A stretch of 18,310 bases of DNA from an uncultured Megamonas sp. (GTDB lineage: Bacteria; Bacillota; Negativicutes; Selenomonadales; Selenomonadaceae): the NCBI GenBank assembly GCA_900554895.1, contig USIX01000031.1:1-18310 (forward strand). The letters are read 5' to 3'. The notes beneath the pieces are model-generated. The model saw only the letters and a list, made by a program, of their open reading frames with translations. It searched no databases and was not told the DNA's origin. Position numbers and translations under genes: made by a program. This document shows positions 1 to 16,269 of this stretch, piece by piece; position 1 is the stretch's first letter; every line of letters starts with the position of its first letter.

Positions 1-1
1 T

Positions 2-31
2 GTGCCGAACCGGCACTCTTAAAAATTTTTT
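2..31 (+). terminator. Terminator of a gene lying left of the window
   Basis: GTGCCG (2-7) pairs with CGGCAC (11-16) around an AAC loop, followed by an A-run and a T-run. This is the usual form of a Rho-independent terminator. Only the 3' part of the upstream gene's transcript is in view, so the gene cannot be named. Confidence 0.5.
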
Positions 32-141
32 CTTTAAGTTCGTTTTCTTTAAAATTAAAAAAACGATAAATAGAAATTTTTTTTATATAAAGAAGTCAAT
101 ATTAAATATTATAAATAAAAGACAGAAAAAGAGGTTTTATT

Positions 142-525
142 ATGAGTGAAATGAAAATCGGCAGTATTGGCATGGCTGAAACCGTAGTCAGCAGTCAAAA
201 TACAGCAAAAACCATGAGAAGCGGAATGCTTGATGTATTTGCAACACCTAGTATGTGTGCTTTGATGGAAGAAGCCGCCTGCAATGCAGTGAGCAGATAT
301 CTTGATGACGGCGAAGGAACTGTCGGCATAAGTTTAAATATAACGCACGACAGACCGAGCGCGATAGGCGCGAAAATTACGGCGACGGCAACGCTGACGG
401 CGATTGAGGGGAGAAAACTCATTTTTGCCGTGGAAGCCAAAGACGGTGAAAATATAATCGGCAAAGGAACGCATGAGCGTTTTATTATAAACAATGAAAA
501 ATTTATGGCAAAATTGAATAAATAA
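142..525 (+). CDS. Fluoroacetyl-CoA thioesterase-like hotdog protein
   Basis: A 127-aa single-domain hotdog protein, most like the FlK family of thioesterases (FlK itself cleaves fluoroacetyl-CoA). The FlK catalytic triad is Thr42, Glu50 and His76. Here Thr35 (in FATPSM), Glu43 (LMEEA) and His69 (NITHDR) show the same spacings of 8 and 26 residues, and the FlK-like GKGTHERF motif is near the C-terminus. It is probably cytosolic and acts on a small acyl-CoA. The natural substrate cannot be read from sequence, since most FlK-like proteins in anaerobes are not linked to fluoroacetate. The start follows a GAGG ribosome site at 131-134. It stands alone and converges on guaD across a shared terminator. 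Confidence 0.85.
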   Translation: MSEMKIGSIGMAETVVSSQNTAKTMRSGMLDVFATPSMCALMEEAACNAVSRYLDDGEGTVGISLNITHDRPSAIGAKITATATLTAIEGRKLIFAVEAKDGENIIGKGTHERFIINNEKFMAKLNK

Positions 526-528
526 TAA

Positions 529-566
529 AAAAAGATGATAGGCACGAAAAATGCTTATCATCTTTT
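529..566. terminator. Bidirectional terminator between thioesterase gene and guaD
   Basis: AAAAAGATGATA (529-540) plus GGCA pairs with TGCT plus TATCATCTTTT (552-566) around an A-rich loop. The stem is flanked by A-runs and T-runs on both strands and lies between two convergent genes, so it can end both transcripts. Confidence 0.8.
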
Positions 567-570
567 GATT

Positions 571-1044
571 TTAGTAGATGGTTTTGTCCTGCTTCTGGCT
601 GAAGGCGTTAAAAGTCTTTATAGTAATATCACGGTCATTTTGAGTCAGTTCCAATACTTTGCCGTCTTTGCAGTTATTTTCGATGAATTTATAAATAAAA
701 TCATCGCGAAATCCAATATCGGCAGCATCCTTTGCAGTATTGCCATAATAAACTTTTTTGATATTTGCCCAGATAATGGCGGACAGACACATTGGGCACG
801 GATAGCAGGATGTGTATAAAGTGCAGCCTGTCAAATCATGTGTGTTTAAATTCCGACAAGCATCCCGGATGGCTTCAATCTCGGCATGGCAGGTCGGGTC
901 ATGATTTATGAGTACGCGATTATGTCCTCTGCCGATGATTTCACCGTCTTTGATTACAACGGCGCCGAATGGACCGCCTTCGTTCGTCTGCAGATTGCTG
1001 TCGGCTTCCTGTGCGGCAAGAGCCATAAATTCCTGTTTGTACAT
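571..1044 (-). CDS. guaD: Guanine deaminase
   Basis: A 157-aa enzyme of the zinc cytidine/deoxycytidylate deaminase fold that converts guanine to xanthine plus ammonia in purine salvage. The zinc ligands His53 (in CHAEIEAI), Cys83 and Cys86 (PCPMC) and the proton-shuttle Glu55 are present, with the same numbering as Bacillus subtilis GuaD by recall. The GGPFGAVVIKDG and FIYK segments also match that family. I start at the Met at 1044 because AAGGAGC lies just upstream on the minus strand. An upstream extension of 19 residues is possible but has no good ribosome site. It is divergent from the nucleobase permease, which suggests joint use in base uptake and catabolism. Confidence 0.93.
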   Translation of the reverse strand: MYKQEFMALAAQEADSNLQTNEGGPFGAVVIKDGEIIGRGHNRVLINHDPTCHAEIEAIRDACRNLNTHDLTGCTLYTSCYPCPMCLSAIIWANIKKVYYGNTAKDAADIGFRDDFIYKFIENNCKDGKVLELTQNDRDITIKTFNAFSQKQDKTIY

Positions 1045-1078
1045 AAAACCGCTCCTTTTGGTTAAATTTTGCATGAAT

Positions 1079-1124
1079 ATTATAACACAATGCGTTGACA
1101 TGTACTAATATATGCTATTATAAT
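1079..1124. promoter_or_regulatory. Divergent promoter region of guaD and the uraA-type gene
   Basis: On the plus strand TTGACA (1095-1100) and TATAAT (1119-1124), 18 bp apart, form a near-consensus promoter for the permease. On the minus strand TATAAT (1084-1079) is a likely -10 for guaD, but its -35 is poor. I see no guanine or xanthine riboswitch fold in the short leaders. Confidence 0.7.
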
Positions 1125-1166
1125 AATGCAGGTTTATTTTTTATAATTTTAGAAAGCGAGGCTGTC

Positions 1167-2438
1167 ATGAAAAAATTTTATGATGTAGAGGAAAAAGTAC
1201 CTCTTTTGCAGGCTGTACCGCTCAGTTTACAGCATTTGTTCGCAATGTTCGGTTCGACGGTGCTTGTGCCGTTTCTGCTGCATGTAAATCCGGCAACGGC
1301 TCTGTTTATGAACGGTATCGGTACTATTTTGTATCTGATTATCTGTAAGGGCAGACTGCCTGCATATCTGGGCTCCAGTTTTGCATTTATTTCTCCTGTA
1401 CTTGCCGTGCTGGCAACCAGCGGTATGAGCTACGGTGATGCACAGGGCGGTTTTATTGCTTTTGGTATATCGTTTATTATTTTATCTTTTGTTGTGGGTA
1501 AAGTCGGTACAAGCTGGATAGATGTTATTCTTCCGCCGGCTGCCATGGGAGCTGTCGTTGCCGTTATCGGTCTTGAGCTTGCACCGCTGGCGCTTGATAT
1601 GTCCGGTTTTGTCAGCAATACAATGGAGTCGCAGGGCATACCGAATGAACTTGCTATGATTACATCGGTATTCACGCTCGGCGTGGCGATACTGGCTTCC
1701 GTTGTTGGCCGCGGTTTTTTGAGTGTAATTCCTGTATTAATCGGTGTAGTAGCAGGTTATATCATGGCACTTTGTCTTGGCATCGTTGATTTATCCGCCG
1801 TGGAAAATGCGCCGTGGGTACAGATACCTACGTTTTACGAACCGAGCTTTAATCCCCATGCTATCATGATTATCATGCCGGCATTGTTTGTTGTATTTGC
1901 TGAACATATCGGTCATGTTGTTGTTACGAGCAGTATCGTAAACCGTGATTTAATTAAAAATCCTGGTCTAAACCGTTCGCTGTTTGCCGATGGTCTTTCC
2001 AATATGATTTCCGGTTTCGTCGGTTCTACGCCGAATACGACTTACGGGGAAAATATGGGCGTTATGGCGATTACGCGTGTCTACAGCGTCTGGGTAATCG
2101 GCGGAGCTGCCGTATTTGCGATTGTATTTTCCTTCGTCGGCAAGATTGCGGCGCTTATTCATTCCATTCCGGTACCGGTAATGGGCGGTATCAGCGTTCT
2201 GTTATTCGGTGTAATTGCCTGCTCCGGTATTCGTATGCTGATTGAAAAGAAAGTCGATTATACAAAAACGAAGAACATGATTTTGACTGCCGTTACCATG
2301 ATTAGCGGTCTCAGCGGTGCAGCCGTGAATGTAGGTCCCGTTCAGCTCAAAGGCATGGGTCTTGCCGTTGTCTGCGGTATGATTATAAGTATCGTATTTT
2401 ACGTTTTTGCCAAACTCGGTTTGGATAATAAAGAGTAA
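1167..2438 (+). CDS. uraA: Uracil permease (NCS2 family)
   Basis: A 423-aa integral membrane nucleobase:cation symporter of the NCS2 (UraA/PyrP/RutG) family with about 14 hydrophobic segments. Family hallmarks are visible: SLQHLFAMFGSTVLVP near the N-terminus, YLGSSFAFISP, the AEHIGHVVVTSS segment bearing the substrate-binding Glu, and TPNTTYGENMG with the second conserved Glu. This pattern fits the uracil branch rather than the xanthine/PbuX branch, although pairing with guaD leaves room for another base. The Met at 1167 is chosen because it has a ribosome-like AGCGAG upstream and matches the family N-terminus. The 24 residues upstream are unlike a permease. Confidence 0.9.
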   Translation: MKKFYDVEEKVPLLQAVPLSLQHLFAMFGSTVLVPFLLHVNPATALFMNGIGTILYLIICKGRLPAYLGSSFAFISPVLAVLATSGMSYGDAQGGFIAFGISFIILSFVVGKVGTSWIDVILPPAAMGAVVAVIGLELAPLALDMSGFVSNTMESQGIPNELAMITSVFTLGVAILASVVGRGFLSVIPVLIGVVAGYIMALCLGIVDLSAVENAPWVQIPTFYEPSFNPHAIMIIMPALFVVFAEHIGHVVVTSSIVNRDLIKNPGLNRSLFADGLSNMISGFVGSTPNTTYGENMGVMAITRVYSVWVIGGAAVFAIVFSFVGKIAALIHSIPVPVMGGISVLLFGVIACSGIRMLIEKKVDYTKTKNMILTAVTMISGLSGAAVNVGPVQLKGMGLAVVCGMIISIVFYVFAKLGLDNKE

Positions 2439-2439
2439 T

Positions 2440-2487
2440 AAAAAAGGAATTGTCGTAGATATTTTAAAACGACAATTCCTTTTTTTA
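2440..2487. terminator. Terminator after the uraA-type gene
   Basis: A 17-bp perfect stem (2440-2456 with 2469-2485) has a 12-nt loop, an A-run on the left and a T-run on the right. It sits just past the permease stop and before the convergent broken transporter, so it probably works in both directions. Confidence 0.88.
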
Positions 2488-2511
2488 TTTTTAAGAGTGC
2501 CCGTTAAGCAC
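2487..2511 (-). terminator. Weak terminator for the broken transporter
   Basis: On the minus strand GTGC and GCAC (2511-2508 and 2500-2497) can pair ahead of CTCTTAAAAAT and an A/T tail. Fifteen nucleotides (2487-2501, minus) are identical to the terminator at 12-26. The stem is only 4 bp, so this is a weak call. Confidence 0.35.
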
Positions 2512-2533
2512 AATATAATATTAAAAGAAATTT

Positions 2534-3404
2534 TTAAATTACCGTGGACAGTACGAGCGTCATGCAGATTGCCACGATGGAAGCAAGGCACGTTGCCAAT
2601 GTATATGATTTTAAAGCATCAATAACAGAGATACCGAAATATTCCTTTACAATCCAGAAGCCGGAGTCGGTTACATGCGAGAAGCAGATGGCACCGGAAC
2701 CTACAGCAAGGGCAACGAGCGCAGGGTCAAGTCCCGGATACTGCGGCAATACAGGCAGTACGATACCAGTGGCAGTCATCATGGCAACGGTGGCGGAACC
2801 TACGGAAAAACGCATCATGGCAGCAACAAACCATGCCAGAATGAGAGGACTTAAACATCGCCTCACAAACACAACGGCAAACATCAACAATAAGTTTACC
2901 TTTTTCTTCACCAATATGTGCTACTGCTACACCGAAAAAACAACTAAAAAAGATAATTTGCAACATATCGCTTTTAGCGCAGGCTTCAACAATATTAGTT
3001 GGAATAATATTTAATAAGTGCATGGAGATGCTGAATGACTCTGCCGTAGCCGCAGCATTGGCTCCGGCAGCTGCTCCGATAGACGGAAGAGAAACGCCCA
3101 CACCCGGTTGGAGAATGTTTACCACAACCAGCCCGACAATGAGTGCCAGACAGCTTGCCACTTCAAACCAGATAATCGCCTTGCCGCCGAGACGACCGAG
3201 TTTTTTGAAATCGCCCGTTCCGGCAATACCGACAATAAGCGTACTGAAGATAAGCGGGACGACAATCATTTTAATCATGCGAATGAAAGCATCGCCGAGT
3301 GGTTTAAGCTGAGAGCCTACTTCTGGCAGGAAATAACCAAAACATGCACCTAACAGTAATCCTAAAAAAATTTGTGTTGTTAAACCCATACGTATTTTTT
3401 TCAA
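2534..3404 (-). pseudogene. Chimeric transporter remnant: gltP-like 5' half joined to gntP-like 3' end
   Basis: The minus-strand reading from TTG 3404 (AAGGAG just upstream) gives ~185 residues of a DAACS-family proton/dicarboxylate or glutamate symporter, including MGLTTQIFLGL and MIKMIVVPLIFSTLIVGI. The match stops at ...CEAMFK near 2850. In a different frame, from about 2851 to the TAA at 2534, the next ~105 codons read as the GntP-family C-terminus: SPLILAWFVAAMM, GSATVAMMTATGIVLP, FSHVTDSGFWIVKEYFG. Two unrelated transporters are therefore joined out of frame, which cannot give a working protein of either kind. Continuing the gltP frame past the join ends at 2727. The likely origin is a deletion between neighbouring gltP and gntP genes in the same orientation. 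An assembly join cannot be excluded. Confidence 0.85.
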
Positions 3405-3425
3405 GTAAATAACTCCTTTTCTCAT

Positions 3426-3581
3426 TAATTTTGCATAATTAAACTATTAACACTAATACAGTTCTATATATTATTACACTATTTTATTTTAGTCAATGTA
3501 TATATAATTGGAAAATATATACAAAATAAATGTAATTTTTTTCAGGTCAATTATTGCATATAAAATTTAAATTAAACTAAA
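3426..3581. other. AT-rich non-coding stretch, probable junction of host genes and mobile element
   Basis: This stretch is strongly AT-rich, with no convincing ORF or RNA gene. It lies between the last host-type gene and the first hairpin element. I find no tRNA 3' end, inverted terminal repeat or integrase-type core that would define an attachment site. Confidence 0.4.
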
Positions 3582-3730
3582 AAATGATATAAGAAACTTT
3601 GCTTTTCTTATGCACATTATAGCAACGCCAGAAAAGACTACAAGGATAAACTACGCAGCTTACGCTGTCCTTGTAGTCTTTTCTTCTGTTGCTATTTTTT
3701 ATGTGCGAAAAGCGACAAAAAACGGTCGCT
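3582..3730 (+). promoter_or_regulatory. Long hairpin promoter/leader element, copy 1
   Basis: The element opens with AAATGATATAAGAAA, which holds an extended -10-like TGATATAAG. A nested hairpin follows: GCTTTTC (3601-3607) with GAAAAGC (3707-3713), GCACAT (3612-3617) with ATGTGC (3701-3706), ATAGCAAC (3619-3626) with GTTGCTAT (3688-3695), and a perfect 17-bp stem 3630-3646 with 3668-3684. The 21-nt loop 3647-3667 contains CAGC-TTAC-GCTG. A short hairpin GCGAC/GTCGC (3712-3716, 3725-3729) overlaps the outer stem by two bases. A related element precedes ardA at 6831. It could be a structured RNA leader or a promoter active in single-stranded DNA. In the right arm, TTGTAG (3671) and TATTTT (3693) are 16 bp apart. 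Confidence 0.8.
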
Positions 3731-3747
3731 GGTTAAGAGGTGATTAG

Positions 3748-3963
3748 ATGAAAAGGAAACGGTTGATATTTGCCTATCACGATTTTATAAAACAAGGTAA
3801 ATACAATTCAGCTCATACAGTTTTACAACTGTTGATAAGAAAAAAAGTAGTTTTAGGATTAGGTGATGATGATTTTGAAGTTGAAAAATTAGCATACAAA
3901 ATAGGACTTACAGTATCTTATGGTTATAGATACAATAGCACGCACATTTATTTACAGGAGTGA
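3748..3963 (+). CDS. Small unknown protein, first gene after hairpin element 1
   Basis: A 71-aa basic protein with no motif I recognise. It has no signal peptide or membrane helix; the middle (about residues 20-35) looks helical and the end is aromatic-rich (YGYRYNSTHIYL). The start has a clear AAGAGGTG ribosome site at 3735-3742. The next gene follows immediately, so the two are likely cotranscribed. Its place right behind the hairpin element, at the head of an operon containing ssb and near ardA, suggests an early-entry function such as an anti-defence factor. That is inference from position only. Confidence 0.75.
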   Translation: MKRKRLIFAYHDFIKQGKYNSAHTVLQLLIRKKVVLGLGDDDFEVEKLAYKIGLTVSYGYRYNSTHIYLQE

Positions 3964-3968
3964 TAAAA

Positions 3969-4316
3969 ATGAACAGAATTATCAGTTGTAACGGTTTTTT
4001 CGCAACTATTAATTATGAAGCAGGCAGTAAAATAAGTTTTGAGCAATCTGATTTGTTTCTATCGCATGATATCGGCAGATTTATAACATCAGGTGATGTT
4101 TTCCAAAAGGTTGCAGATTGCATCAGCTCCTTCTTAAAGTCTGATTGGGGCTGTATACATGGAGATGATATACCGCTAAACAATGAAGCTTTAAAAACGG
4201 GCGACAGGATTTTAGGAGCGTATATGATAGATAAAACAAAGATATGGATTATCGCTGACGCCAATAATGAACCTCAAAGACGAATTATTACGGTGCTATT
4301 TCCAAGTGAATACTGA
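3969..4316 (+). CDS. Small plasmid-type protein with WGxxxxDD...KIWII...TVLFPSEY pattern
   Basis: A 115-aa protein whose C-terminal half (SDWGCIHGDDIPLNNEA, RILGAY, TKIWIIADA, ITVLFPSEY) recalls a small domain family common on plasmids and conjugative elements of many phyla. Those proteins are often called hypothetical or, without good reason, restriction-subunit M. Its molecular role is not known to me. I start at ATG 3969 because AGGAG (3956-3960) is placed correctly for it. The GTG at 3960 would lie inside that ribosome site. It follows the 71-aa gene with almost no gap, and a 12-bp hairpin abuts its stop codon. Confidence 0.75.
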   Translation: MNRIISCNGFFATINYEAGSKISFEQSDLFLSHDIGRFITSGDVFQKVADCISSFLKSDWGCIHGDDIPLNNEALKTGDRILGAYMIDKTKIWIIADANNEPQRRIITVLFPSEY

Positions 4317-4343
4317 GTGATAGAAGGAAAATCCTTCTATCAC
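4317..4343 (+). other. Stop-adjacent hairpin 1
   Basis: GTGATAGAAGGA (4317-4328) pairs perfectly with TCCTTCTATCAC (4332-4343) around a 3-nt loop, starting at the base after the stop codon. No T-run follows, and the next gene's ribosome site comes a few bases later. It is therefore more like an RNA processing or stability site, or a single-strand fold, than a terminator. Confidence 0.7.
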
Positions 4344-4361
4344 CAATGAAAGGATAATGAA

Positions 4362-4742
4362 ATGCTTAATATAAATGAATTGGACAGTGATATAACCAAA
4401 ATAAAAGATGTCTCTCGAATTGAGAGAATGATAAAAATGGAAAATGAAATATTTGAAGATATGTACCGGTTAATGCTCTACGATGACAGCCGGTCCAACA
4501 AGGAAAACAACAATGTAGTAAAGGCATATCTTACATCACAAATTAAGGCTTTAAATCATCTTCAAAAATTGCTGGACAAACATAAACCTGCTTTTGATGA
4601 ATTGGAAAAAACCCGACAGGAAAAGAAAAAGGAAGCTGACAGGGAAAAGAAACAAAATGAAGATGTTAAATCTAAAAATGATACCGATAAAAATGATGAA
4701 ATGAATTTATTTGATGAAAACGAAACGGAGTGTGTAAAATGA
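4362..4742 (+). CDS. Charged coiled-coil protein upstream of ssb
   Basis: A 126-aa, strongly charged protein. Residues ~1-75 look helical, and ~80-115 are a Lys/Glu/Asp-rich stretch likely to be disordered or coiled coil. It ends with an acidic segment (DEMNLFDENETE). No family is recognised. A GAAAGGA ribosome site precedes the ATG. Its stop overlaps the ssb start (ATGA at 4739-4742), so translation is probably coupled. This suggests a role with single-stranded DNA or SSB, but that is inferred from coupling alone. Confidence 0.78.
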   Translation: MLNINELDSDITKIKDVSRIERMIKMENEIFEDMYRLMLYDDSRSNKENNNVVKAYLTSQIKALNHLQKLLDKHKPAFDELEKTRQEKKKEADREKKQNEDVKSKNDTDKNDEMNLFDENETECVK

Positions 4743-5074
4743 AAGTTTACGGTGTAGGGCGGTTAACACGGAACGTTGATGTTATGTACAGTGCAAGCGG
4801 TGTATGCGTAGCAAAATTCGGGCTTGCGGAAAACATCTATAACAACAAAACAAAAGAAAGTACAGCTCAATTTTACAATATAGTGGTATTTAACAAATTA
4901 GCTGAAAGGATTGGTAATCTGAACCTTGGAAAAGGCGACAAACTTCAAATAGAAGGTTATCTGCAAATACAGGATTATCTAGATAAAAAGGGCGACAAAC
5001 GGAAATACACCCAAATTATATTAAGTGGTTTTGAATTATGCACCACAAAGAAACAAGATACCGAAAATAAATGA
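4739..5074 (+). CDS. ssb: Single-stranded DNA-binding protein
   Basis: A 111-aa OB-fold SSB: MKVYGVGRLTRNVDV opens like bacterial SSBs, followed by the FYNIVVFNKLAERIG and GDKLQIEGYLQIQDYLDKKGDKR strands. The start at ATG 4739 has CGGAG 8 bp upstream and overlaps the previous stop. The protein is short and ends in ...TTKKQDTENK. It lacks the acidic DDDIPF-type tip through which chromosomal SSBs recruit partners, which suggests a coating role without that recruitment. Mobile-element SSBs are typical of leading regions, where they protect incoming DNA and damp the SOS response. Confidence 0.9.
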   Translation: MKVYGVGRLTRNVDVMYSASGVCVAKFGLAENIYNNKTKESTAQFYNIVVFNKLAERIGNLNLGKGDKLQIEGYLQIQDYLDKKGDKRKYTQIILSGFELCTTKKQDTENK

Positions 5075-5083
5075 TATATAAAC

Positions 5084-5114
5084 AGTGTAAGAAGGCTTAT
5101 CGCCTTCTTACACT
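5084..5114 (+). other. Stop-adjacent hairpin 2
   Basis: A 13-bp perfect stem (5084-5096 with 5102-5114) with a TTATC loop lies between the ssb stop and the next gene's AAAGG ribosome site. No T-run follows, so it is not a standard terminator. Confidence 0.7.
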
Positions 5115-5133
5115 AAAAGAAAGGATATTTATC

Positions 5134-6768
5134 ATGAAGAATATTTTTAGCGTTAAAATCGGCTCAGAAGCCTATTATTCCACCTATGAAGAAGATGGCA
5201 CAACGTTTATGTTCATTAATAAAAATATTGCATATTGCACAAAATGTAATTGTAGATTTCAATTTGATTTTTATTATCTCTATAGCTGTATCGATCAAAT
5301 AAGTTGTCCTAAATGTGGCAGAAGGTATTATAACAACGAGATTGTCTACAGCAATGTTTACAATAGCCATTTACCTTATAAAACGGAAATAAAAATTATC
5401 GAATACAAAACAAAGTTGCAACTCAAAATAAACTATAAGGCAATGAGTTTAAACGATAAAGATTTGTATGCTAAAGTCTATGATATTAAAGAAATTTATA
5501 CTTTTGATATACTAAACAGCTCATCTTCATGGGAAAAACATTATCCAAATGATGATGAAAAGCTGTTACATGAATACCAGGATATAGGATATCTGACGGA
5601 TTACGAGAACTTACAGGAAAAAACGGCGTTATGGTTTTTCTCTATTAATCATGCTACTAAAAAGAAGATACCTCTTAGCAGAATTTTGAAAATCCTGCGT
5701 CAGAAGATTAATCAAAAGGAACGTCAATTACACGGCTTTTCAAAAAGAAATATGTATATAGATAATGTTTCGCAAAAACATCGTCTTTTTGCCAATATAT
5801 TAAATCTAGCACACAAGGTCAGGTTTTGGGACAGTGATAATATATCTTACGGCGATGATTTCCCTGTTTTAAAGAAAGCTTTTATTGATACAGTCATAAA
5901 GCAAAACTTTGAAAAACAGGCTTTTGAGCTGATGAAAGAAAAAGATATGACATATCATCAAGCAATCTTTTCCGCATTATCCCTGCCGTACAGAAAAAAC
6001 ATTTTAAAATGTTTTTCTTATGATAATCTATACTTCCTATTGCCTATATATTCCATAAAAGATACTAAGATTGCTGATACTATGCTTACTATTTATGATA
6101 AGCACCTATACAAAGACCAGTATACGGCGTGGAATACAGTTGTTAAGAATTATACTGAACAGCTACGGAAAACATGTGAGTTCATAAATGTCTTTTATCT
6201 GAACTTTTACCGAAACATGAAGCTTACTGATATTTTAAAGAAAGACTATAAACTTAAAGATATTATGAACTTATGGCATACAGCCAATAATGACACCAAA
6301 AGCAAGTTTATGCAGGAAAAAGTACGATTTAAAGATTTGCATGACTGGCTCGCTATAAATGTTGCCAAACAGCCGGACCAAGAAATTAATTTCGATTTGC
6401 CTCAAAACATATTAAACAGATTTAATTTATATATGATGAACAGCAAATTTAAAAGCACCTGCATAAATAAATACAGTCATCTAAAATATGTTGCTCAAAA
6501 TCTTAAAAACTGTTCTGCCGGATATAAGGATAGAATATCAGAAAAACTTCAACTTGTTGTGATAAGTGATGATACAGGAAAACCGAAAGTTCTGCTGGAA
6601 GTGAAAGAAAACGCTATTGTACAGGCAAAACTCTTTAATAACGTATCTGTAAGAAATGATATTGTGCTGAATAAGCTGGTTTTAGAGTTTGCTAAAGAAA
6701 CAAGACTTGATATAGAAACAACAGATATACAGCAACCAGAAAATGATATAGCAGAAGCCATAGCTTAA
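5134..6768 (+). CDS. PcfJ-like protein with N-terminal zinc ribbon
   Basis: A 544-aa protein. Cys35/Cys38 (with Cys40) and Cys58/Cys61 form a CxxC...CPKC zinc ribbon. The C-terminal ~150 residues (SHLKYVAQNLKNCSAGYKDRI, then LVVISDDTGKPKVLLEV and AIVQAKLFNN) match the PcfJ family, named after a gene in the transfer region of enterococcal plasmid pCF10. The biochemical role of PcfJ is unknown. The start at ATG 5134 is preferred because AAAGG lies 8-9 bp upstream and the in-frame ATG at 5071 lies before hairpin 2. It is the last gene of operon 1 and is followed by hairpins that look like a terminator. Confidence 0.82.
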   Translation: MKNIFSVKIGSEAYYSTYEEDGTTFMFINKNIAYCTKCNCRFQFDFYYLYSCIDQISCPKCGRRYYNNEIVYSNVYNSHLPYKTEIKIIEYKTKLQLKINYKAMSLNDKDLYAKVYDIKEIYTFDILNSSSSWEKHYPNDDEKLLHEYQDIGYLTDYENLQEKTALWFFSINHATKKKIPLSRILKILRQKINQKERQLHGFSKRNMYIDNVSQKHRLFANILNLAHKVRFWDSDNISYGDDFPVLKKAFIDTVIKQNFEKQAFELMKEKDMTYHQAIFSALSLPYRKNILKCFSYDNLYFLLPIYSIKDTKIADTMLTIYDKHLYKDQYTAWNTVVKNYTEQLRKTCEFINVFYLNFYRNMKLTDILKKDYKLKDIMNLWHTANNDTKSKFMQEKVRFKDLHDWLAINVAKQPDQEINFDLPQNILNRFNLYMMNSKFKSTCINKYSHLKYVAQNLKNCSAGYKDRISEKLQLVVISDDTGKPKVLLEVKENAIVQAKLFNNVSVRNDIVLNKLVLEFAKETRLDIETTDIQQPENDIAEAIA

Positions 6769-6776
6769 TGTTTCAG

Positions 6777-6825
6777 GCAGGGCGTTTGCCCTGCTTATGA
6801 TATAAACAAAATCCTTCGGATTTTT
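6777..6825 (+). terminator. Double hairpin ending operon 1
   Basis: GCAGGGC (6777-6783) pairs with GCCCTGC (6788-6794) around GTTT. A second stem AAAATCC/GGATTTT (6808-6814, 6818-6824) follows and runs into T's. The second stem has terminator form. TGATATAAA, a -10-like box, lies between them. Confidence 0.6.
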
Positions 6826-6830
6826 AAAAG

Positions 6831-6986
6831 AAATGATATAAGAAATTTTTATCGCTTTTCTTTTTCGCACTATAATGTCATTCATTCCGAAAAGCAAGGG
6901 TAAACGGTGCAGCTTGCGCTGCCCTTGCTTTTCTCCCTTCTGCCATTATCTAAAGACGTGCGAAAAGCGACAAAAAAATGGTCGCT
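6831..6986 (+). promoter_or_regulatory. Long hairpin promoter/leader element, copy 2 (before ardA)
   Basis: The layout is the same as copy 1: AAATGATATAAGAAA at 6831-6845, then CGCTTTTC (6853-6860) with GAAAAGCG (6962-6969), GCAC (6867-6870) with GTGC (6958-6961), ATAATG (6872-6877) with CATTAT (6944-6949), and a perfect 12-bp stem 6889-6900 with 6922-6933. The 21-nt loop 6901-6921 contains CAGC-TTGC-GCTG. The short GCGAC/GTCGC hairpin (6967-6971, 6981-6985) follows. Compared with copy 1, the loop and the GTGCGAAAAGCGACAAAAAA block are almost unchanged, while the long stem differs in sequence and stays paired. TTGCTT (6925) and TATCTA (6947) in the right arm have the same 16-bp spacing as in copy 1. 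Confidence 0.82.
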
Positions 6987-7025
6987 GAGGTAAATACTAA
7001 GATTACATAAAGAGAGGTTTTAAAA

Positions 7026-7577
7026 ATGAAAGATTTATATGTGAGAGTTTATTTAACAAACATGAGAAAATACAATGAAGGTCAATTAATCGGTGGCTGG
7101 GTTGATGTTTCCACTGATACAGATTGGAGCAAAGAATTAAAGAATTTTTGCCGTATCGGTATCGGTAAAGATGATGTTTTCGGCGAAGAATATTTTATCA
7201 GTGATTATGAAACGAATATAAATGATTTGAACATCAGTGAGTACACATCAATTTCAGAGCTTGAAAACGTAGCTGAATTTATAGAATACGTAAATCTTAA
7301 TGACTTACAAGATATAGCAAATGAACTCATTGAAGCGATCGGTGGCATAGATATTTATAGACTTATGCGGTTGCTTGAGAATGAACAATATGTCTATATT
7401 GCCGATGCCGGTGATGATGAAAAACTCGGTGAATACATCATAGAAAATGATGCAAAATACAGCAGTTTATCTGATGATATAAAGCATTATTTAGATAAAG
7501 AAGCGATCGGTAGCGATTACTGTATAAATAACGGTGGTATATATCAGAATGGCAATTATATTGAACTTTTAGGCTGA
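7026..7577 (+). CDS. ardA: Antirestriction protein ArdA
   Basis: A 183-aa acidic protein that matches ArdA by eye. Family features are the opening LYVRVYLTNMRKYNEGQLIGGWVDV, the EEYFISDYE segment and the later LLENEQYVYIAD stretch. ArdA is an elongated dimer that mimics B-form DNA and blocks Type I restriction-modification enzymes, protecting incoming plasmid or transposon DNA. Its acidity and Asp/Glu spacing fit that role. AGAGAGG (7010-7016) precedes the ATG. It heads operon 2 directly after hairpin element 2, the position expected of an early-expressed anti-defence gene. Confidence 0.92.
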   Translation: MKDLYVRVYLTNMRKYNEGQLIGGWVDVSTDTDWSKELKNFCRIGIGKDDVFGEEYFISDYETNINDLNISEYTSISELENVAEFIEYVNLNDLQDIANELIEAIGGIDIYRLMRLLENEQYVYIADAGDDEKLGEYIIENDAKYSSLSDDIKHYLDKEAIGSDYCINNGGIYQNGNYIELLG

Positions 7578-7584
7578 TTGAAAA

Positions 7585-7613
7585 TGCAGTGCTGAACAAC
7601 ATTCAGCACTGCA
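7585..7613 (+). other. Stop-adjacent hairpin 3
   Basis: TGCAGTGCTGAA (7585-7596) pairs perfectly with TTCAGCACTGCA (7602-7613) around CAACA. It begins 8 bp past the ardA stop and ends 5-6 bp before the next ribosome site, with no T-run. Confidence 0.7.
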
Positions 7614-7633
7614 CATTAAAGAGGTGTATTGAA

Positions 7634-7855
7634 ATGAATGTAACGTTATATATCAAAGGCAAAAATGAAAACCATACCGAAAATTTTAAAATCAGCAAAA
7701 GCAGGAACTACAGTTATTTTCAAAAAGCTCTAAAAGGTTTTCATGAACTCAAAGGCACGGTATTTATAAAATACTTTGCAACAAACATGTTTAAGATTGC
7801 GGGCATTGTAGAGGGCTATATAATCGTTGTAGAAGGAGAAAAATTAAATGCTTGA
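7634..7855 (+). CDS. Small unknown protein after ardA
   Basis: A 73-aa protein of unknown family, mostly short beta strands by appearance (VTLYIKG, TVFIKYF, GYIIVVEG). The start ATG 7634 has AGAGGTG 8 bp upstream; an ATG at 7589 lies inside hairpin 3 and is unlikely. Its end overlaps the next small ORF by 8 bp, so the two are probably translated together. Position in the ardA operon hints at a defence-evasion or transfer-establishment role (inference). Confidence 0.7.
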   Translation: MNVTLYIKGKNENHTENFKISKSRNYSYFQKALKGFHELKGTVFIKYFATNMFKIAGIVEGYIIVVEGEKLNA

Positions 7856-8024
7856 TATACAAAAAGAAATTAACAATATAGATAAAATTATACAAAATTT
7901 ATATGAAATAAAGCTGGAATTGAAAATACTAAGTTTTAGACATGATGATAAATTCAAAGAAAGATATCTGAAACATAAATTGTATAAACTTGGTACGCTG
8001 ATAGAAAAAGAGGTGAGATTATGA
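7848..8024 (+). CDS. Small coiled-coil protein (58 aa)
   Basis: Reading from ATG 7848 gives 58 residues (MLDIQKEINNIDKIIQNLYE ... KLGTLIEKEVRL), rich in Lys/Glu/Ile/Leu with a heptad look, so probably a helical hairpin or coiled coil. AGAAGGAG (7831-7838) is a good ribosome site. It overlaps the previous gene by 8 bp and its TGA overlaps the next ATG (ATGA at 8021-8024), typical of coupled genes in an operon. No family is recognised. Confidence 0.7.
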   Translation: MLDIQKEINNIDKIIQNLYEIKLELKILSFRHDDKFKERYLKHKLYKLGTLIEKEVRL

Positions 8025-8371
8025 AAAAATTATCAAGAAAATATATGAGAGAAAACTTTCATAAACTGGGCGTTGTTCAATTCGGCTACCGTATTCCAGC
8101 CGACAAGCCAATAACTGAAGCTCTAAAAGAAGCAATGATAAGTTTACGGAAGAACTATGATTTAAAAAATGTTACCATGAACAATGTGATATATACCTCT
8201 GACAGTTTTATTCGGATGCGAAAAAACGGTACGTATTCTCAAGTCTTTTTAAAAAAAGGTTTTGTTATCTATATTCATGAGAATATTCTTTATGCTGGAC
8301 AAGTACAGAAAGAAGAATATGGTGATATAAAGCTCTATCTGCTGTTAGGAGCATTTTACAAGGTAAACTAG
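8021..8371 (+). CDS. Unknown protein at end of ardA operon
   Basis: A 116-aa basic protein with a mixed alpha/beta look. The N-terminus is rich in Arg/Lys (MKKLSRKYMRENFHKLG), and the C-terminal half holds short strands (QVFLKKGFVIYIHENILYAGQV). No family is recognised. GAGGTGAGATT lies just before the ATG, and the start overlaps the previous stop. A 10-bp hairpin starts on the base after its stop. Confidence 0.72.
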   Translation: MKKLSRKYMRENFHKLGVVQFGYRIPADKPITEALKEAMISLRKNYDLKNVTMNNVIYTSDSFIRMRKNGTYSQVFLKKGFVIYIHENILYAGQVQKEEYGDIKLYLLLGAFYKVN

Positions 8372-8396
8372 GATAGGGCAGTCAATCTGCCCTATC
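8372..8396 (+). other. Stop-adjacent hairpin 4
   Basis: GATAGGGCAG (8372-8381) pairs with CTGCCCTATC (8387-8396) around TCAAT, starting immediately after the stop codon. No T-run follows. TGATATAAT (8399-8407), an extended -10 box, comes next and may drive the following gene. Confidence 0.7.
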
Positions 8397-8398
8397 TA

Positions 8399-8407
8399 TG
8401 ATATAAT
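8399..8407 (+). promoter_or_regulatory. Extended -10 promoter of the Rpn-like gene
   Basis: TGATATAAT fits the extended -10 pattern TGnTATAAT. No good -35 is seen, as expected of extended -10 promoters. A GAGGTG ribosome site follows at 8414-8419. Confidence 0.5.
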
Positions 8408-8425
8408 AAGAATGAGGTGCATACT

Positions 8426-9082
8426 ATGACAAAACAAAAACGCAAAGTGTATCGACTCAATGACTTTTTCTTTAAAAATTTGATGGGCGATGAGAAAAGA
8501 AGCAATCTGACGCTTAGATTTTTAAATCTTATATTGAACCGAACCGGAGAAAACGCCTTTAAAAGCATACAATTTCTAAAAACGGAACAAGACCCGCTGA
8601 CAAAAGACGGAAAGTTATCCATTCTTGATGTTAAAGCAAGCGTTGATGATAAAACATTCGTCAATATAGAGCTTTAAGTATCAAGACAGAATTATATAAT
8701 TAAACGTTCTATGTTTTATATATCCCGAATATTTTCCGAACAGGCTGTAAGAGGTCATGACTATGATGAGCTCAAGCCTGTAATCGGCATAAACCTGTTA
8801 GATTTCAACTTGTTTGAAGAACTATCAAACTGGCATAATACGGCAAACTTTACAGTGAAAGGAATAGAAGAACCTATAACAGACTGCATTACAATGCACT
8901 TTCTTGAATTGCCGAAACTCAAATTTAGTGATATAAAGAAAGCTAAACGACTAGAAGCATGGGGCGCATATTTTTCCGGTGTATCTGATGAAAAGGAATT
9001 GGAGGTTTTATGTATGAATGAACCTTTATTAAAAGAAGCGTTATCTTATGAACAGGCTTTTACCAATAAAGATCCACAATAA
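8426..9082 (+). pseudogene. Rpn/PDDEXK_2-family nuclease, broken by an in-frame TAA and a lost C-terminus
   Basis: The N-terminal part (VYRLNDFFFKNLMGDEKRSNL, then KDGKLSILDVKASVDD) is typical of Rpn recombination-promoting nucleases (PDDEXK_2 'transposase'). The frame hits TAA at 8675-8677, exactly where the family's NIExQ motif needs Gln. It then continues in the same frame with the expected VSRQNYIIKRSMFYISRIFSEQ, so this is a single CAA-to-TAA change rather than a frameshift. The protein also stops at 9082, soon after CMNEPLLKEALSYEQAF, short of the usual ~290 residues. The Met at 8711 could restart translation but would lack the catalytic part. I start at ATG 8426 with GAGGTG upstream. 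Confidence 0.88.
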
Positions 9083-9258
9083 TTATCTCTGATACATTCA
9101 ATTGCTTCAGTTTCATTACCATCACACCAATGTACACCTTTACGACATGCAGTTACTAATTTTTTCATTGCCTCTTCTGAAATTTTTCCTGTAAAAAACA
9201 ACTCCATTACAACTTCTGTAACAGAATTTAAACCCCTACCAATATTATGACAACTCAT
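9046..9258 (-). CDS. Small cysteine-containing unknown protein
   Basis: A 70-aa protein with several cysteines (MSCHNIG, TACRKGVHWCDG, IECIRDNYCG, KACS) and a helical middle (VVMELFFTGKISEEAMKKLV). The cysteines and His could bind metal, but no family is recognised with confidence. AGAAGGTG precedes the ATG on the minus strand. Its 3' end overlaps the last 37 bp of the Rpn remnant on the opposite strand. The fused look of this junction suggests a deletion removed the nuclease's 3' end, and possibly the tail of this gene too. Confidence 0.68.
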   Translation of the reverse strand: MSCHNIGRGLNSVTEVVMELFFTGKISEEAMKKLVTACRKGVHWCDGNETEAIECIRDNYCGSLLVKACS

Positions 9259-9288
9259 TTTAACACCTTCTATCTAAATTGTTTTTAT

Positions 9289-9316
9289 ATTATCATGATA
9301 CTATATATCTAAGCAA
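9289..9316 (-). promoter_or_regulatory. Promoter of the 70-aa gene
   Basis: On the minus strand TTGCTT (9316-9311) and GATAAT (9294-9289) are 16 bp apart and point at the gene starting at 9258. Confidence 0.5.
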
Positions 9317-9332
9317 AAAAATAGATGAAAAT

Positions 9333-9366
9333 AAAAATAAGCTACCTGTAATGGCAGCTTATTTTT
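9333..9366. terminator. Terminator of the leftward topB operon
   Basis: AAAAATAAGCT plus CC (9333-9346) pairs with GG plus AGCTTATTTTT (9353-9366) around a 6-nt loop with one mismatch, and T-runs lie on both strands. It follows the last gene of the leftward operon. Confidence 0.82.
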
Positions 9367-9402
9367 TACTTTATAGGAGGAGTTAGAAAAGTATCAAGCA
9401 AT

Positions 9403-9591
9403 TTAACATAAGCCTTCTTCTTCGGCTATTCGGCGACGTTCCTCTTTGGGGAGAGAATTGAGATAATCGATTGCAGCATCAAACTCTTCATCAGAAATGA
9501 GCATTCCGCCGTCGCCATTTTCGAAAACGACAATAGGGTCAGCGTCGTCTCCTAAATCAAAAATGTCATAGTTTTTTTGTTCTTCTTTCAT
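9403..9591 (-). CDS. Small acidic unknown protein
   Basis: A 62-aa very acidic protein (FDLGDDADPIVVFENGDGG, DEEFDAAIDYLNSLPKEERRR). It probably has a beta segment followed by a helical hairpin. No family is recognised. GAGAGG sits just upstream of the ATG on the minus strand. It is the last gene before the terminator and follows the PRC-barrel-like gene by 11 bp. Confidence 0.75.
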   Translation of the reverse strand: MKEEQKNYDIFDLGDDADPIVVFENGDGGMLISDEEFDAAIDYLNSLPKEERRRIAEEEGLC

Positions 9592-9602
9592 TAGTATACC
9601 TC

Positions 9603-10340
9603 TCAGCAGTTAACAGTTTCTCCGAGAATGTTTACTTTGTTAGCAGCAGCCAGCTCGTCGATGAGCTGTTTAGTTACTGTTGTGCCGGAAGAATATGTTT
9701 TACCATTACAGGAGATATCTTTTTTCAGTGTTTTGTTTAAATACAGTTTATAGGACATACTCAAATCGTGATTAGCTTTTTTTACAGGAGGAGCTACTGT
9801 TTCTGTTTTAATTTTCACCTGTTCCGGTTCAGTTTTTTTTACCGGCTCTTTGGTATTATCCATATCTTTAACTTTAACTATGGTATAATCCTTTGCCAGT
9901 ATATCTATGTTTTGGATATCGATATCTTCTTCACAGTAATAGGCTACTTTACAGCTTAAAATATCACCGTTTTCATTTATGGTGTATTCTTTTACTTTGC
10001 CATATCTTTCGCCGTTTTTAATACAATCCGTATCTACTACCTTGATTTTATCCTGTAAGATTTTATCTATAAAGTCAGGTTTAATTTCGCGATAAGAGAT
10101 AATATCTTTGGAAGACATAATCATAATGTTGGTATCGTTGATACCGATAATTTTCTGGAACGGAATAACTTTGAGTTCTTCGGTCGGATAGTAATATTTC
10201 TCCGGAGTTTTACGGGCAAGTCCTAAAGCGATAACTTTTTTACCTGCTCCGTCTATAATTATATCATCTGCTACTCCGACTACAATGCCTTCCGTGATAC
10301 TTGTGATTGGTTTCAATAATGCTTTGCTTTCATACTTCAT
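9603..10340 (-). CDS. PRC-barrel-like protein
   Basis: A 245-aa soluble protein. Residues ~5-80 (ITSITEGIVVGVADDIIIDG, then KVIPFQKIIGI) and ~95-155 (RYGKVKEYTINENGDILSCKV) look like two PRC-barrel modules, small beta-barrels that bind proteins or RNA. A Lys/Glu/Pro-rich linker (~160-190) leads to a C-terminal module (SYKLYLNKTLKKDI, then SSGTTVTKQLIDEL). The gene overlaps topB by 4 bp. A PRC-barrel protein coupled to a mobile-element topoisomerase is not a pairing I know. It may be an adaptor for DNA processing, but function cannot be stated. Confidence 0.72.
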   Translation of the reverse strand: MKYESKALLKPITSITEGIVVGVADDIIIDGAGKKVIALGLARKTPEKYYYPTEELKVIPFQKIIGINDTNIMIMSSKDIISYREIKPDFIDKILQDKIKVVDTDCIKNGERYGKVKEYTINENGDILSCKVAYYCEEDIDIQNIDILAKDYTIVKVKDMDNTKEPVKKTEPEQVKIKTETVAPPVKKANHDLSMSYKLYLNKTLKKDISCNGKTYSSGTTVTKQLIDELAAANKVNILGETVNC

Positions 10341-12490: not shown

Positions 12491-12881
12491 CTACAATCAC
12501 CTCACTGTCCTCATCTTCGATAGAAGATTCATTTGTTAGTGAATTATTCGTCACAATCGGATTTTCTTCAACTTCTTTCAATAAGGTATCTTTTTTAAGA
12601 GATATAGTATCAGCCGTTTTGTTAACATCTAAATCTTTTATATTTACATTCTTACTCTTTAAGGCTATAGCCAGTCTTTTTACATCCAGGAAATCTTTTT
12701 CCTGTTCCAAATCAAAGATATCTTTATCTATTTTTACTTTTTCGTTTTTCTTGCCGGCAAGAATTTTTTGCAGCCGTTCAATAGAACGTGCTACTGTATC
12801 TTGTTTTGTCTTTAATCCGACAATTTTCAGCTCACATTTTTTATATCGGGCTTCAACGTCTTCAAAGATATTTGGATTCAT
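12420..12881 (-). CDS. Coiled-coil protein upstream of topB
   Basis: A 153-aa charged protein. Residues ~10-75 form a long coiled coil (KKCELKIVGLKTKQDTVARS, then KVKIDKDIFDLEQEKDF). The last ~50 residues are acidic and Ser-rich (SSIEDEDSEVIVDE...SESSSQEK) and likely disordered. It overlaps the preceding gene by 20 bp and topB by 71 bp, so this operon is tightly packed. No family is recognised. Such coiled-coil partners often accompany mobilization genes, but no function can be assigned. Confidence 0.75.
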   Translation of the reverse strand: MNPNIFEDVEARYKKCELKIVGLKTKQDTVARSIERLQKILAGKKNEKVKIDKDIFDLEQEKDFLDVKRLAIALKSKNVNIKDLDVNKTADTISLKKDTLLKEVEENPIVTNNSLTNESSIEDEDSEVIVDEIVHSREAVYGDRDSESSSQEK

Positions 12882-13185: not shown

Positions 13186-13191
13186 AATCTA

Positions 13192-13220: not shown

Positions 13221-13223
13221 TAC

Positions 13224-13263: not shown

Positions 13264-13322
13264 ACCATGAGACAAGAGAAAATGATACAATAAAAACAAG
13301 GAATTTTAGAATGTTCACTTTA

Positions 13323-13341
13323 CCATTTATTTCATAAATGG
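13323..13341. repeat. Inverted repeat in the divergent intergenic region
   Basis: CCATTTAT (13323-13330) and ATAAATGG (13334-13341) form a perfect 8-bp palindrome around TTC. It lies upstream of the membrane protein/relaxase operon and could be an operator or part of a transfer origin. Confidence 0.55.
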
Positions 13342-13992: not shown

Positions 13993-16269
13993 ATGGCTTT
14001 TTATCACTGTTCAATCAAAACACCAAAATCCAGAGACGGAAAATTTGTACCAGGTCAAAAACATGCTGACTATATAAACCGTGAAGGCGAGTATAAAAAT
14101 TATGACGATAAAACAGAAATAGCAGCCGCACACGCACAGTACATTAACCGGCAAAATGATTTTGCCAAAGAAAATTTTGTAAAAAAACACGGACAGTGTG
14201 TATACAAAGCCAATAGACTTCCCAAATGGGCGGATGGCAGCGCATCCAAATTTTTTCTCGCAGCCGATATTCACGGCAGACGTAACAGTCTGTCTTATCG
14301 TGAGTTTGAAATTGCGCTTCAAGAAGAACTTACATTAGAACAGAATATCGAAATTGTAAATACTATATTAAACAAGTATAAATATTTTCAGGATAAATAT
14401 TATGCGCTGGCAATTCATGATAAACAGGCGACACTCGACAGCGGCAAAAAGCAAATTCATTGTCACATTATGGTTAGTGATAAAATAATCGACGATAGAG
14501 AACATACAAACGAACGACCGGCAGAGCAATTTTTTAAGACGTATTGTCCGGTAAACACGGAAAACGGCGGAGCAAAAGTTGACAGGCATTTTTCTAAGGA
14601 CTCTTTCGGCAAAAACGTAACGGCATTCAGGAAATTTTACTGTGACGTAACAAATGCCGTTTTCAAAAAATACGGCATAGATAAGAGTATTGATTACAGA
14701 AGTCTTAAGATGCAGCGTGAAGAAGCTTTGCGTCAGGGCGATTATGTTAAAGCCGAAATATTAAACAGAGAGCCGGAAAAATATTTAGGTCCGATTGTAT
14801 CCGGTGATAAAAACAATCCCGTAGTGCAAAATCTTTTAGAATGCAGAAAGCTTCGTTCTGAGAGAGAAAATCTTATCCAGGCAGCTAATGAGCAGGAAAA
14901 GATTTTAAAAGACGCGCAATTCATCTCAAAAATAAATAAAAGTGTAAACGAAGCTGACAATATTATTCGAAAAGATTATTCGATAAAGTCAGCTCAGATT
15001 GTCACGCTTAAAAACAGCATTTTATTTTTGACAAATCAGGTTACTGAAGCCAGAAAAAATGTTTTGACGTATGACGCTGCTAAGAAACTGGCTAAATATA
15101 ATTTGATGAACAAAGATGAAAAAACTTTAATGAACAAATTATATACACTGCAAAAACAGGAACGAGAGCTTCAGTTTGAAATCAAAAATACCGAAAACAC
15201 TACGAATGAATTGTCTGCAAAGCTGGAAACTATTCAAAAATGTATCAGCGGTCTTAAAGTGCAGTTGCGTCCTGTTAACAAAAAATTCAATGAAACATAT
15301 TGGAAATCTAAGATTACTAAAAATGCCAACTGGCTACTAAAAGAAAACGCTCCGTTCAGAGATAAACTAGAACTTCTTCAGCAAAATCTTGATGAACAGA
15401 CAGCAAAATTCAGGGAGCTTACAGTAGCCAATATTAAAAATCTGTATAAAGAAGCATACTCGGCTAAAGAAGTTAAATCTGTTCTGGATAATCTTATTAT
15501 AAACGTAAAAAATTCTATAGCTTACAAAGAGCAGGAATATAAATCGCTTTTATCAAGAGTTGTCTCTCCTGCACGTGCTAGAGAAATGGCTCTTGATGTA
15601 TTCACTAATCATCAATTCAAAGAGCTCAGACAAACAAAAAAAGAAATTCAGAAAGAAAAAGTTCGTCTGGAAAAAGATGCACAGCCGATTTTAACTAAAA
15701 AAGATTATGCTCAGCGTGTCGGCGATAGTGAGTTGCTTAATGAATGCGACATTGAACTTAGTAAATTCGTTTCAGCATATAAAGAACAGTTAGCTAAAGA
15801 GAAAGTTATGCAGGGTAAATTTAACGAGCTGGATAGACTTTGTAATACGCCGCAGGGACAGGAAAAAATTCAAAGTATCATTGATGGCATTCTGACGAAA
15901 AACAGCAGTATTAAAGTTCAATTTGATACAGTCAAATCTTCACTTTCTTCACTCAAAACAGAACTTAAAAATCTTACATCCTTATCTGTAGGTGTTAATA
16001 ATCAGGTTCGTCTTGACCAAAATTCCAATACCAAATACTTCATAAAAGAAACCGCCGGCATGAATGTTACGACTAGCGGAAGCAGTATAAGTTCATCGAC
16101 AAACCAAGATATAAAAATTTTAGCACAGGCTTTTAATGGTATGGAAGAAGTTGCTCCACTCATCGCCCGTATAGACGATAATACAGATGAAATCTTAGAT
16201 TATACACATCTAAGTACGGTTGATAAAAAAGCTAAACAGACAGCCAGTATCTTAAAAGAATTTTCATAA
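13993..16269 (+). CDS. mobA: MobA/MobL relaxase (MOBQ family) with long coiled-coil tail
   Basis: A 758-aa relaxase that would nick the transfer origin and pilot the strand into the recipient. The first ~270 residues resemble RSF1010 MobA: AFYHCSIKTPKSR; KHADYINREGEY (catalytic Tyr27, like AKADYIQREGKY of MobA); LAIHDKQ (His142); and IHCHIMVSDKI (His156, His158), the metal-binding histidines. ERPAEQFFKTY and the later EKYLGPIV also fit. Residues ~280-700 are coiled coil (ERENLIQAANEQEKI, KLYTLQKQERELQFEI), not the primase found in RSF1010 MobA. AAGGAGG (13979-13985) precedes the ATG. Confidence 0.93.
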   Translation: MAFYHCSIKTPKSRDGKFVPGQKHADYINREGEYKNYDDKTEIAAAHAQYINRQNDFAKENFVKKHGQCVYKANRLPKWADGSASKFFLAADIHGRRNSLSYREFEIALQEELTLEQNIEIVNTILNKYKYFQDKYYALAIHDKQATLDSGKKQIHCHIMVSDKIIDDREHTNERPAEQFFKTYCPVNTENGGAKVDRHFSKDSFGKNVTAFRKFYCDVTNAVFKKYGIDKSIDYRSLKMQREEALRQGDYVKAEILNREPEKYLGPIVSGDKNNPVVQNLLECRKLRSERENLIQAANEQEKILKDAQFISKINKSVNEADNIIRKDYSIKSAQIVTLKNSILFLTNQVTEARKNVLTYDAAKKLAKYNLMNKDEKTLMNKLYTLQKQERELQFEIKNTENTTNELSAKLETIQKCISGLKVQLRPVNKKFNETYWKSKITKNANWLLKENAPFRDKLELLQQNLDEQTAKFRELTVANIKNLYKEAYSAKEVKSVLDNLIINVKNSIAYKEQEYKSLLSRVVSPARAREMALDVFTNHQFKELRQTKKEIQKEKVRLEKDAQPILTKKDYAQRVGDSELLNECDIELSKFVSAYKEQLAKEKVMQGKFNELDRLCNTPQGQEKIQSIIDGILTKNSSIKVQFDTVKSSLSSLKTELKNLTSLSVGVNNQVRLDQNSNTKYFIKETAGMNVTTSGSSISSSTNQDIKILAQAFNGMEEVAPLIARIDDNTDEILDYTHLSTVDKKAKQTASILKEFS

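Follow-up and report, generated by a model that had tools for sequence, protein, structure and literature searches.

Single-stranded-DNA (ssDNA) promoters have been described on conjugative plasmids: Frpo1 and Frpo2 of F and ssi2 and ssi3 of ColIb-P9 are hairpins that form on the strand being transferred, ahead of leading genes such as ssb, and in which folding rebuilds a -35 and a -10. In F the two paralogues lie about 5 kb apart and are needed for early expression of the leading genes (PMC9849209). The present analysis concerns two hairpin elements, also paralogous and about 3.1 kb apart, in an 18,310-nucleotide stretch of DNA from an uncultured Megamonas sp. (assembly GCA_900554895.1, contig USIX01000031.1, positions 1 to 18,310; hereafter, the window), which on sequence grounds we read with good confidence as Frpo-like ssDNA promoters on the transferred (bottom) strand.

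Other described systems resemble these elements in part. Samuel et al. 2024 (PMC11541004) likewise proposed Frpo-like ssDNA promoters placed before anti-defence genes in leading regions; five known Frpo/ssi sequences served as BLAST queries to obtain these candidates, as did the promoter consensus in four islands, and the available part of that paper makes no mention of Negativicutes. On the Bacillota conjugative plasmid pLS20, structured repeats (EGeRS1) also stand upstream of establishment genes, and ssDNA promoters were there deemed highly unlikely by the authors because the transferred strand is the non-template strand (PMC8708921). In the single-strand origins (sso) of rolling-circle plasmids and of ICEBs1, too, a folded single strand recruits RNA polymerase (PMC4595007); an sso is a priming site, whereas the elements described here stand at the heads of several operons.

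Two paralogous hairpins in the window

An earlier note made from the letters of this DNA had proposed two long hairpins with a shared loop and 3' block, each at the head of an operon. Both are present where it had placed them, with ssb/PcfJ-like and ArdA operons behind them, and comprise the following features.

3593..3735, bottom strand (the putative transferred strand): element 1, hairpin heading the ssb/PcfJ-like operon
3616..3621, bottom strand: predicted -10 of element 1, TATAAT; the nontemplate arm carries it when the strand is folded
3638..3643, bottom strand: predicted -35 of element 1, TTGTAG, 3/6 to consensus; paired, adjoining the loop
3647..3667, unstranded: loop of element 1, TAAAC plus an apical mini-hairpin
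3693..3698, unstranded: arm of element 1 opposite the -10, TATTTT; unpaired beyond its first three bases
3711..3730, top strand: tail hairpin of element 1, AGCGAC...GTCGCT, predicted near the transcript 5' end
6846..6991, bottom strand: element 2, a hairpin paralogous to element 1, in front of the ArdA operon
6869..6874, bottom strand: predicted -10 of element 2, TATAGT
6892..6897, bottom strand: predicted -35 of element 2, TTGCTT, 3/6 to consensus
6901..6921, unstranded: loop of element 2, TAAAC plus an apical mini-hairpin
6966..6986, top strand: tail hairpin of element 2, AGCGAC...GTCGCT

The 21-nt loop with TAAAC, GCAGCTT and CGCTG is found in both copies, as had been noticed, together with the common block GTGCGAAAAGCGACAAAAAA. 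Perfect complementarity of the arms, also claimed, holds for the inner stems, of 17 bp in element 1 (3630-3646 with 3668-3684) and 12 bp in element 2 (6889-6900 with 6922-6933), and fails for the whole arms, in which internal loops are present; these loops are informative. The bottom strands fold far better than shuffled sequences (z -9.75 and -4.77 for the two elements, with 0/200 shuffles equal), and the top strands of both elements, as RNA, likewise fold far better than shuffles.

Covariation and the structured strand

The first relative found lies on a Megamonas funiformis plasmid, upstream of ardA. Across the three copies (elements 1 and 2 and the plasmid copy), pairing is kept in 98% of cells, with both partners altered in 11 of the 34 pairs; both-side changes, pairing and covariation score are as high in 0/500 shuffles, the number of further pair types in 9/500, and slid controls pair in 38-52%. 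Over 26 sequences, 81.8% of cells pair against 54.9% in shuffles, 240 cells against 85 change on both sides, and covariation reaches 0.640 against 0.172, with slid controls at 0.13-0.20; none of 500 shuffles is as high for pairing, both-side changes or covariation, and the number of further pair types is unremarkable (116/500 shuffles). The earlier proposal of selection for structure is thereby borne out. The covariance models built along the way were R1, from the three copies, which includes the -10 columns, and R2, a core model from the 26 sequences, which ends before the -10; their use in searches, as had been suggested, recovered further homologues whose stems covary. The CAAGG at the top of the stem and the apical mini-hairpin are conserved, and so is TAAA or TGAA at the start of the loop, in 27 of 28 curated elements; one element, L133, was retained with a loop that starts TTCG.

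Whether the structure acts as RNA or as ssDNA had been left open, and the mismatches within the stem bear on this choice. Counted over positions 6-24 in elements at least 65% paired there, they amount to 57 cells, of which 29 would be G-T if the bottom strand is the one that folds and 3 would be G-U if the transcript is; with near-copies counted once, the figures are 25 and 3 of 50, and permutations keeping the base composition of both arms give a mean of 15.3 (P 0.0001). Because the bias is towards G-T in bottom-strand DNA, with G-U in an mRNA rare, the structure appears to be kept on the bottom strand, which points to bottom-strand ssDNA. A hairpin working in the mRNA, as a 5'-untranslated-region structure, attenuator or stabiliser transcribed from an ordinary duplex promoter, would be expected to tolerate G-U in the transcript stem, and the bias is towards G-T on the other strand; the confinement of the -10 to one arm, described below, speaks against such a role as well. 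The good folding of the top strand as RNA, the tail hairpin AGCGAC/GTCGCT, which would lie in the transcript, the top-strand TATAAT of element 2 and two terminator-like sites in the apex of that element are compatible with it, and on balance it is highly improbable. Two other candidates were rejected: an intrinsic terminator, as the main hairpins are followed by no T run, though the scan lists the two sites in the element 2 apex, and an integron attC site, with no integrase among the 20 window proteins scanned.

A predicted promoter on one arm

From the loop outward, the bottom-strand 3' arm reads CCTTG, three variable bases, 15-18 nt and TAnnnT, and the opposite arm is often complementary as far as about the -12 base and then diverges, often into a T run. 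The A at -11 and the T at -7, both kept in TAnnnT, are the bases that sigma reads in the open strand. Among the 28 curated elements, TAnnnT at a spacing of 15-18 stands on the bottom-strand 3' arm in 21 and on the other arm in 1, the relaxed NAnnnT (spacing 16-18) in 25 versus 2, and the -35 TTG is paired in 27; this set carries a selection bias, R1 including the -10 columns.

Searches that hold no -10 information give a similar asymmetry. A hairpin rule of this kind yields TAnnnT in 17 versus 1 of 19 loci, which were mostly found with R1 and overlap the curated 28. The stem-top pattern matches in 72 of 380 genomes, mostly by chance, and TAnnnT counts are 13 versus 1 for its 22 hairpins (one unreadable) and 5 versus 0 for its 66 non-hairpins. 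With R2, 22 matches fall outside the curated set; the 21 readable ones carry TAnnnT in 15 cases on the expected arm versus 1 on the wrong arm, and those with E up to 3.2e-6 in 13 versus 0 (n=13; cut chosen afterwards). A second hairpin of the M. funiformis plasmid and all five copies in genome G276, one of which belongs to the curated 28, have TAnnnT on the bottom-strand 3' arm only. As in Frpo and ssi, a single-strand hairpin would join a -35 to a -10, the -10 being clear and the -35 conserved as TTG only.

Distribution of the family

The hairpins form a family on plasmids and integrated elements of Negativicutes. R1 finds a fourth copy on a Selenomonas plasmid (E 0.00045) and two copies flanking a PcfJ-like gene in genome G382; it matches 4/17 genomes of that genome's family (E up to 0.1), 4/61 of the order (E up to 0.05) and 8/380 of the class (E up to 0.01), one of the last (G471) being judged false. 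R2 gives 45 matches in 25/380 genomes of the class at E up to 0.003, and for 19 of these genomes the best match has E 3.2e-6 or less; one match (G735, 8430) runs off its contig and was left unscored. We take the 380-genome class to be Negativicutes, because contig C2 of genome G591 has the M. funiformis plasmid matches at the same coordinates. The G591 chromosome carries six copies between 1,544,900 and 1,613,074, on one strand throughout, and the second M. funiformis plasmid hairpin (39000-39074) matches R2 at E 6e-8. In 299 genomes of a wider group R1 gives 3 weak matches; the one in G276 was later backed by R2, and the other two are known as alignments only. Two R1 matches, L132 (G471) and L136 (G413), were judged to be hairpins of another sort, lacking the family loop, and were excluded.

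G276, from the wider group, has five dispersed copies (L270-L274) on one chromosome in both orientations; in the four that were compared, the flanking sequences cease to resemble one another past about 100-150 bp. A near-identical subfamily (GCCTTGACGG...TACTTT; L257, L266, L267, L268 and L269) occurs in five genomes, one copy lying beside an IS3-like gene (by eye) and the others without a recognised leading-type gene.

Pattern searches added no members. The loop-and-tail pattern matched 66 stretches in genome contigs and 9 in viral contigs, which were judged chance because none has a stem of more than 5 bp, where the three copies already known have 7-12. In viral contigs the exact tail pattern had 0 matches, the outer-helix pattern had 7, 0 of them with the inner hairpin, and a search for the PcfJ-like protein returned nothing useful. 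These tail, loop and helix patterns required the GCGAAAAG tail, which most copies outside Megamonas do not carry. Rfam has 0 family matches in the window at gathering score.

The sequence comparison with F was made over 20 kb: the best R1 match there (13.6 bits, E 0.27) is not at Frpo2, R2 gives no match at E up to 1, and homology to Frpo was thus not found in this part of F. BLAST of element 2 against 72,556 plasmid records (E up to 1) gave no match besides the Megamonas one. The designs differ as well, the Negativicutes elements having the -35 at the loop, a TAAA/TGAA loop and a mismatch at the -10, and the F hairpin being longer with its bulge elsewhere (by a fold computed here, not from the published Frpo -35/-10 positions). 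No description of the hairpin family was recognised among the matches listed for open-licence PMC papers (no preprints) on ssDNA promoters in Bacillota, Negativicutes and Megamonas. The earlier statement that no named motif or element of this form was known therefore stands for sequence, within the searches made, and gives way for function, where the elements would be of the Frpo/ssi kind of conjugative plasmids. As far as the comparison goes, they agree with Frpo in position and in predicted design, not in sequence, and we regard them as a new variant of that kind, unrelated in sequence and likely to work as ssDNA promoters.

Gene context and orientation

The window from about 3.55 kb onward is taken to be a mobile element with ssb, PcfJ-like, ArdA, topoisomerase and MobA/MobL relaxase genes, of which the following matter here.

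3748..3963, top strand: first gene behind element 1, 71 aa, without a Pfam match
4739..5074, top strand: ssb, single-stranded DNA-binding protein (SSB)
5131..6768, top strand: PcfJ-like protein; a relative in Megamonas funiformis is named PcfJ domain-containing
7026..7577, top strand: ArdA antirestriction protein, first gene behind element 2
13313..13341, bottom strand: oriT-like inverted repeat plus nic-like TAAAGTGAAC
13993..16269, top strand: MobA/MobL relaxase

The PcfJ-like protein itself has no Pfam or NCBIfam match. Across the family, an SSB, ArdA, PcfJ-like or RadC-like gene comes first or in the same stretch in 12 of the 24 element rows left after two were dropped, and Pfam confirms SSB in G591, G382 and G692, ArdA in G591 and G474, and UPF0758_N (RadC-like) in G382. 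The earlier note had predicted more copies in front of ardA and ssb, with covariation in their stems; such copies exist and covary, though only about half of the elements head genes of this type. In G735 an 854-aa open reading frame (ORF) with an N6 methylase domain stands behind the element, and the G744, G761 and G762 copies precede look-alikes of this ORF, as judged by eye from the first 80 residues; enterobacteria, too, have methylase genes behind Frpo (PMC7736820).

The direction of transfer can be approached through the oriT-like repeat. Upstream of the relaxase gene, this repeat, followed by a TAA-TG--C motif that we take to resemble RSF1010 nic, occurs on the strand opposite the gene in 12/14 regions (11/13 distinct), against 1/14 in the gene-strand control, and the inverted repeat of the G591 integrated element is the same as that of the window. 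The transferred strand would therefore be the template of genes on the relaxase strand, unlike the situation described for pLS20 EGeRS1 (PMC8708921). The two element ends lie 6321 and 9577 nt from the oriT-like site of the window, on its putative leading side. Of the copies within 60 kb of a relaxase gene on the same molecule, 19/20 are on the strand of that gene (2 in the window, 2 on the M. funiformis plasmid, 1 on the Selenomonas plasmid, 6 in G591, 6 in G382 and 2 in G761); outside this set stand G692 (119 kb, same strand), a distant G382 copy at 1.64 Mb, and genomes with the relaxase on another contig or not sought. Like Frpo and ssi, the elements thus lie upstream of leading-type genes, in half of the rows, with the transferred strand as the probable template.

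A plasmid record, NZ_CP048628.1 (L001), has the PLSDB type non-mobilizable, yet carries MobA/MobL, many type IV secretion system genes and an oriT-like site. In genomes G382 and G430 a hairpin (L131:9910-10050 and L134:10014-10158) lies directly upstream of TnpB (Cas12f1-like TNB domain), and for one of the two the nearest relaxase gene is on the other strand. It would be unusual for an ssDNA promoter to drive an RNA-guided nuclease.

Such neighbours raise the question of whether the hairpins are ends of transposable elements or recombination sites, spread by copying. The copies adjoining TnpB genes in G382 and G430, the IS3-like gene (by eye) adjoining a copy in G430 and the five dispersed copies of G276 would suit this explanation. 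It is nonetheless improbable, as the copies of the window, the M. funiformis plasmid, G591, G382 and G692 head SSB, ArdA, PcfJ-like or RadC-like genes and not one transposase, and as covariation and the one-armed -10 hold family-wide, the five G276 copies included.

A further possibility is that the hairpins are sso-like single-strand origins, at which RNA polymerase would make the primer for the second strand, with gene expression secondary. The motif TAGCGT, presumably the CS-6 conserved in the loop of ssoA, is absent from both window elements, including their loops; its 2 window matches, at 5148 and 6611, lie outside them. The six copies in one integrated element fit promoters better, and so do sites shortly upstream of start codons, half of them those of leading-type genes. 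Frpo itself, on the other hand, serves both as promoter and as primer site (PMC7736820), and on many rolling-circle plasmids of Gram-positive bacteria the folded sso acts as a promoter (PMC4595007). As the main role, an origin is rather unlikely; the two roles are compatible, and the elements perhaps double as priming sites.

Other observations in the window

The uracil permease of the window is 99% identical to one named Megamonas hypermegale. At 2534-3425 the C-terminus of a GntP permease is fused to the start of an apparent dicarboxylate symporter gene (the latter by eye), which looks like a chimeric assembly or a rearrangement beside the mobile element. CGCCCC/CGCCTC repeats (13227-13262), about 50-85 bp from the oriT-like site, are perhaps sites of relaxosome proteins. 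A PD-(D/E)XK transposase-family gene at 8417-9082 is apparently broken by a stop, and an ORF resembling it (by eye) follows ArdA in the G591 element.

Proposed function

During conjugation the bottom strand would enter the recipient with its 5' end leading, and each element would fold on it into a hairpin that rebuilds a sigma-A promoter. In the folded form a paired -35 (TTG-N3) would stand beside the loop, followed by a largely paired spacer and by the -10 (TAnnnT) on the 3' (nontemplate) arm, where the mismatched opposite arm would leave the bubble pre-opened. RNA polymerase would then bind and, ahead of second-strand synthesis, transcribe the transferred strand rightwards into ssb and the genes for the PcfJ-like protein and ArdA, ArdA and SSB would protect the newcomer DNA, and conversion to duplex would abolish the hairpin and shut the promoter off.

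Several observations weigh against this proposal. The -35 fits the consensus poorly, with 3/6 in both window elements and TTG alone kept across the family, and a general promoter scan does not list the proposed sites. In element 2 a top-strand TTTATC-17-TATAAT scores 9.0 by a simple score against 8.0 for the proposed site, so that an ordinary duplex promoter is possible there, and the opposite arm of element 1 also reads TATTTT. TAnnnT is absent in 7/28 curated elements (G382_290, G474, G490, G683 and the G744/G761/G762 group), and among the 8 weaker new R2 matches it occurs in 2 only, with 1 on the wrong arm (G507_C5, TACAAT). Many members are near-copies, so the counts are not independent; the 13 strongest new matches contain two sets of near-copies, with five and four members, and amount to about five new families plus one further copy of the Selenomonas element. 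The other 12 of the 24 element rows have no leading-type gene behind them, some copies adjoin tnpB or IS3-like genes or are scattered in a chromosome (G276), and the G430 copy is opposite in strand to its relaxase gene. Finally, the polarity of the transferred strand depends on the presumed likeness of the motif to RSF1010 nic. The weak -35 and the competing top-strand site slightly lower our confidence in the ssDNA promoter.

Going further, we lean towards a broader picture in which these elements are a separate, sequence-unrelated ssDNA-promoter family of Negativicutes, in which selection removed complementarity from about -11 to -7 and so may have created a ready-made open complex. The six copies in one integrated element would then define a regulon serving the first minutes after entry into a new cell, and further mobile elements, TnpB-bearing ones among them, would have acquired the module as well.

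If this is true, promoters of the entering strand would not be an enterobacterial speciality, and would have evolved in, or spread to, another phylum in a different, compact design. The pre-melted -10 would permit a clear test of which bases must be unpaired for initiation on ssDNA, and the covariance model would offer a way to seek anti-defence genes that are expressed early and, in gut bacteria that have been little studied, to tell which way transfer runs.

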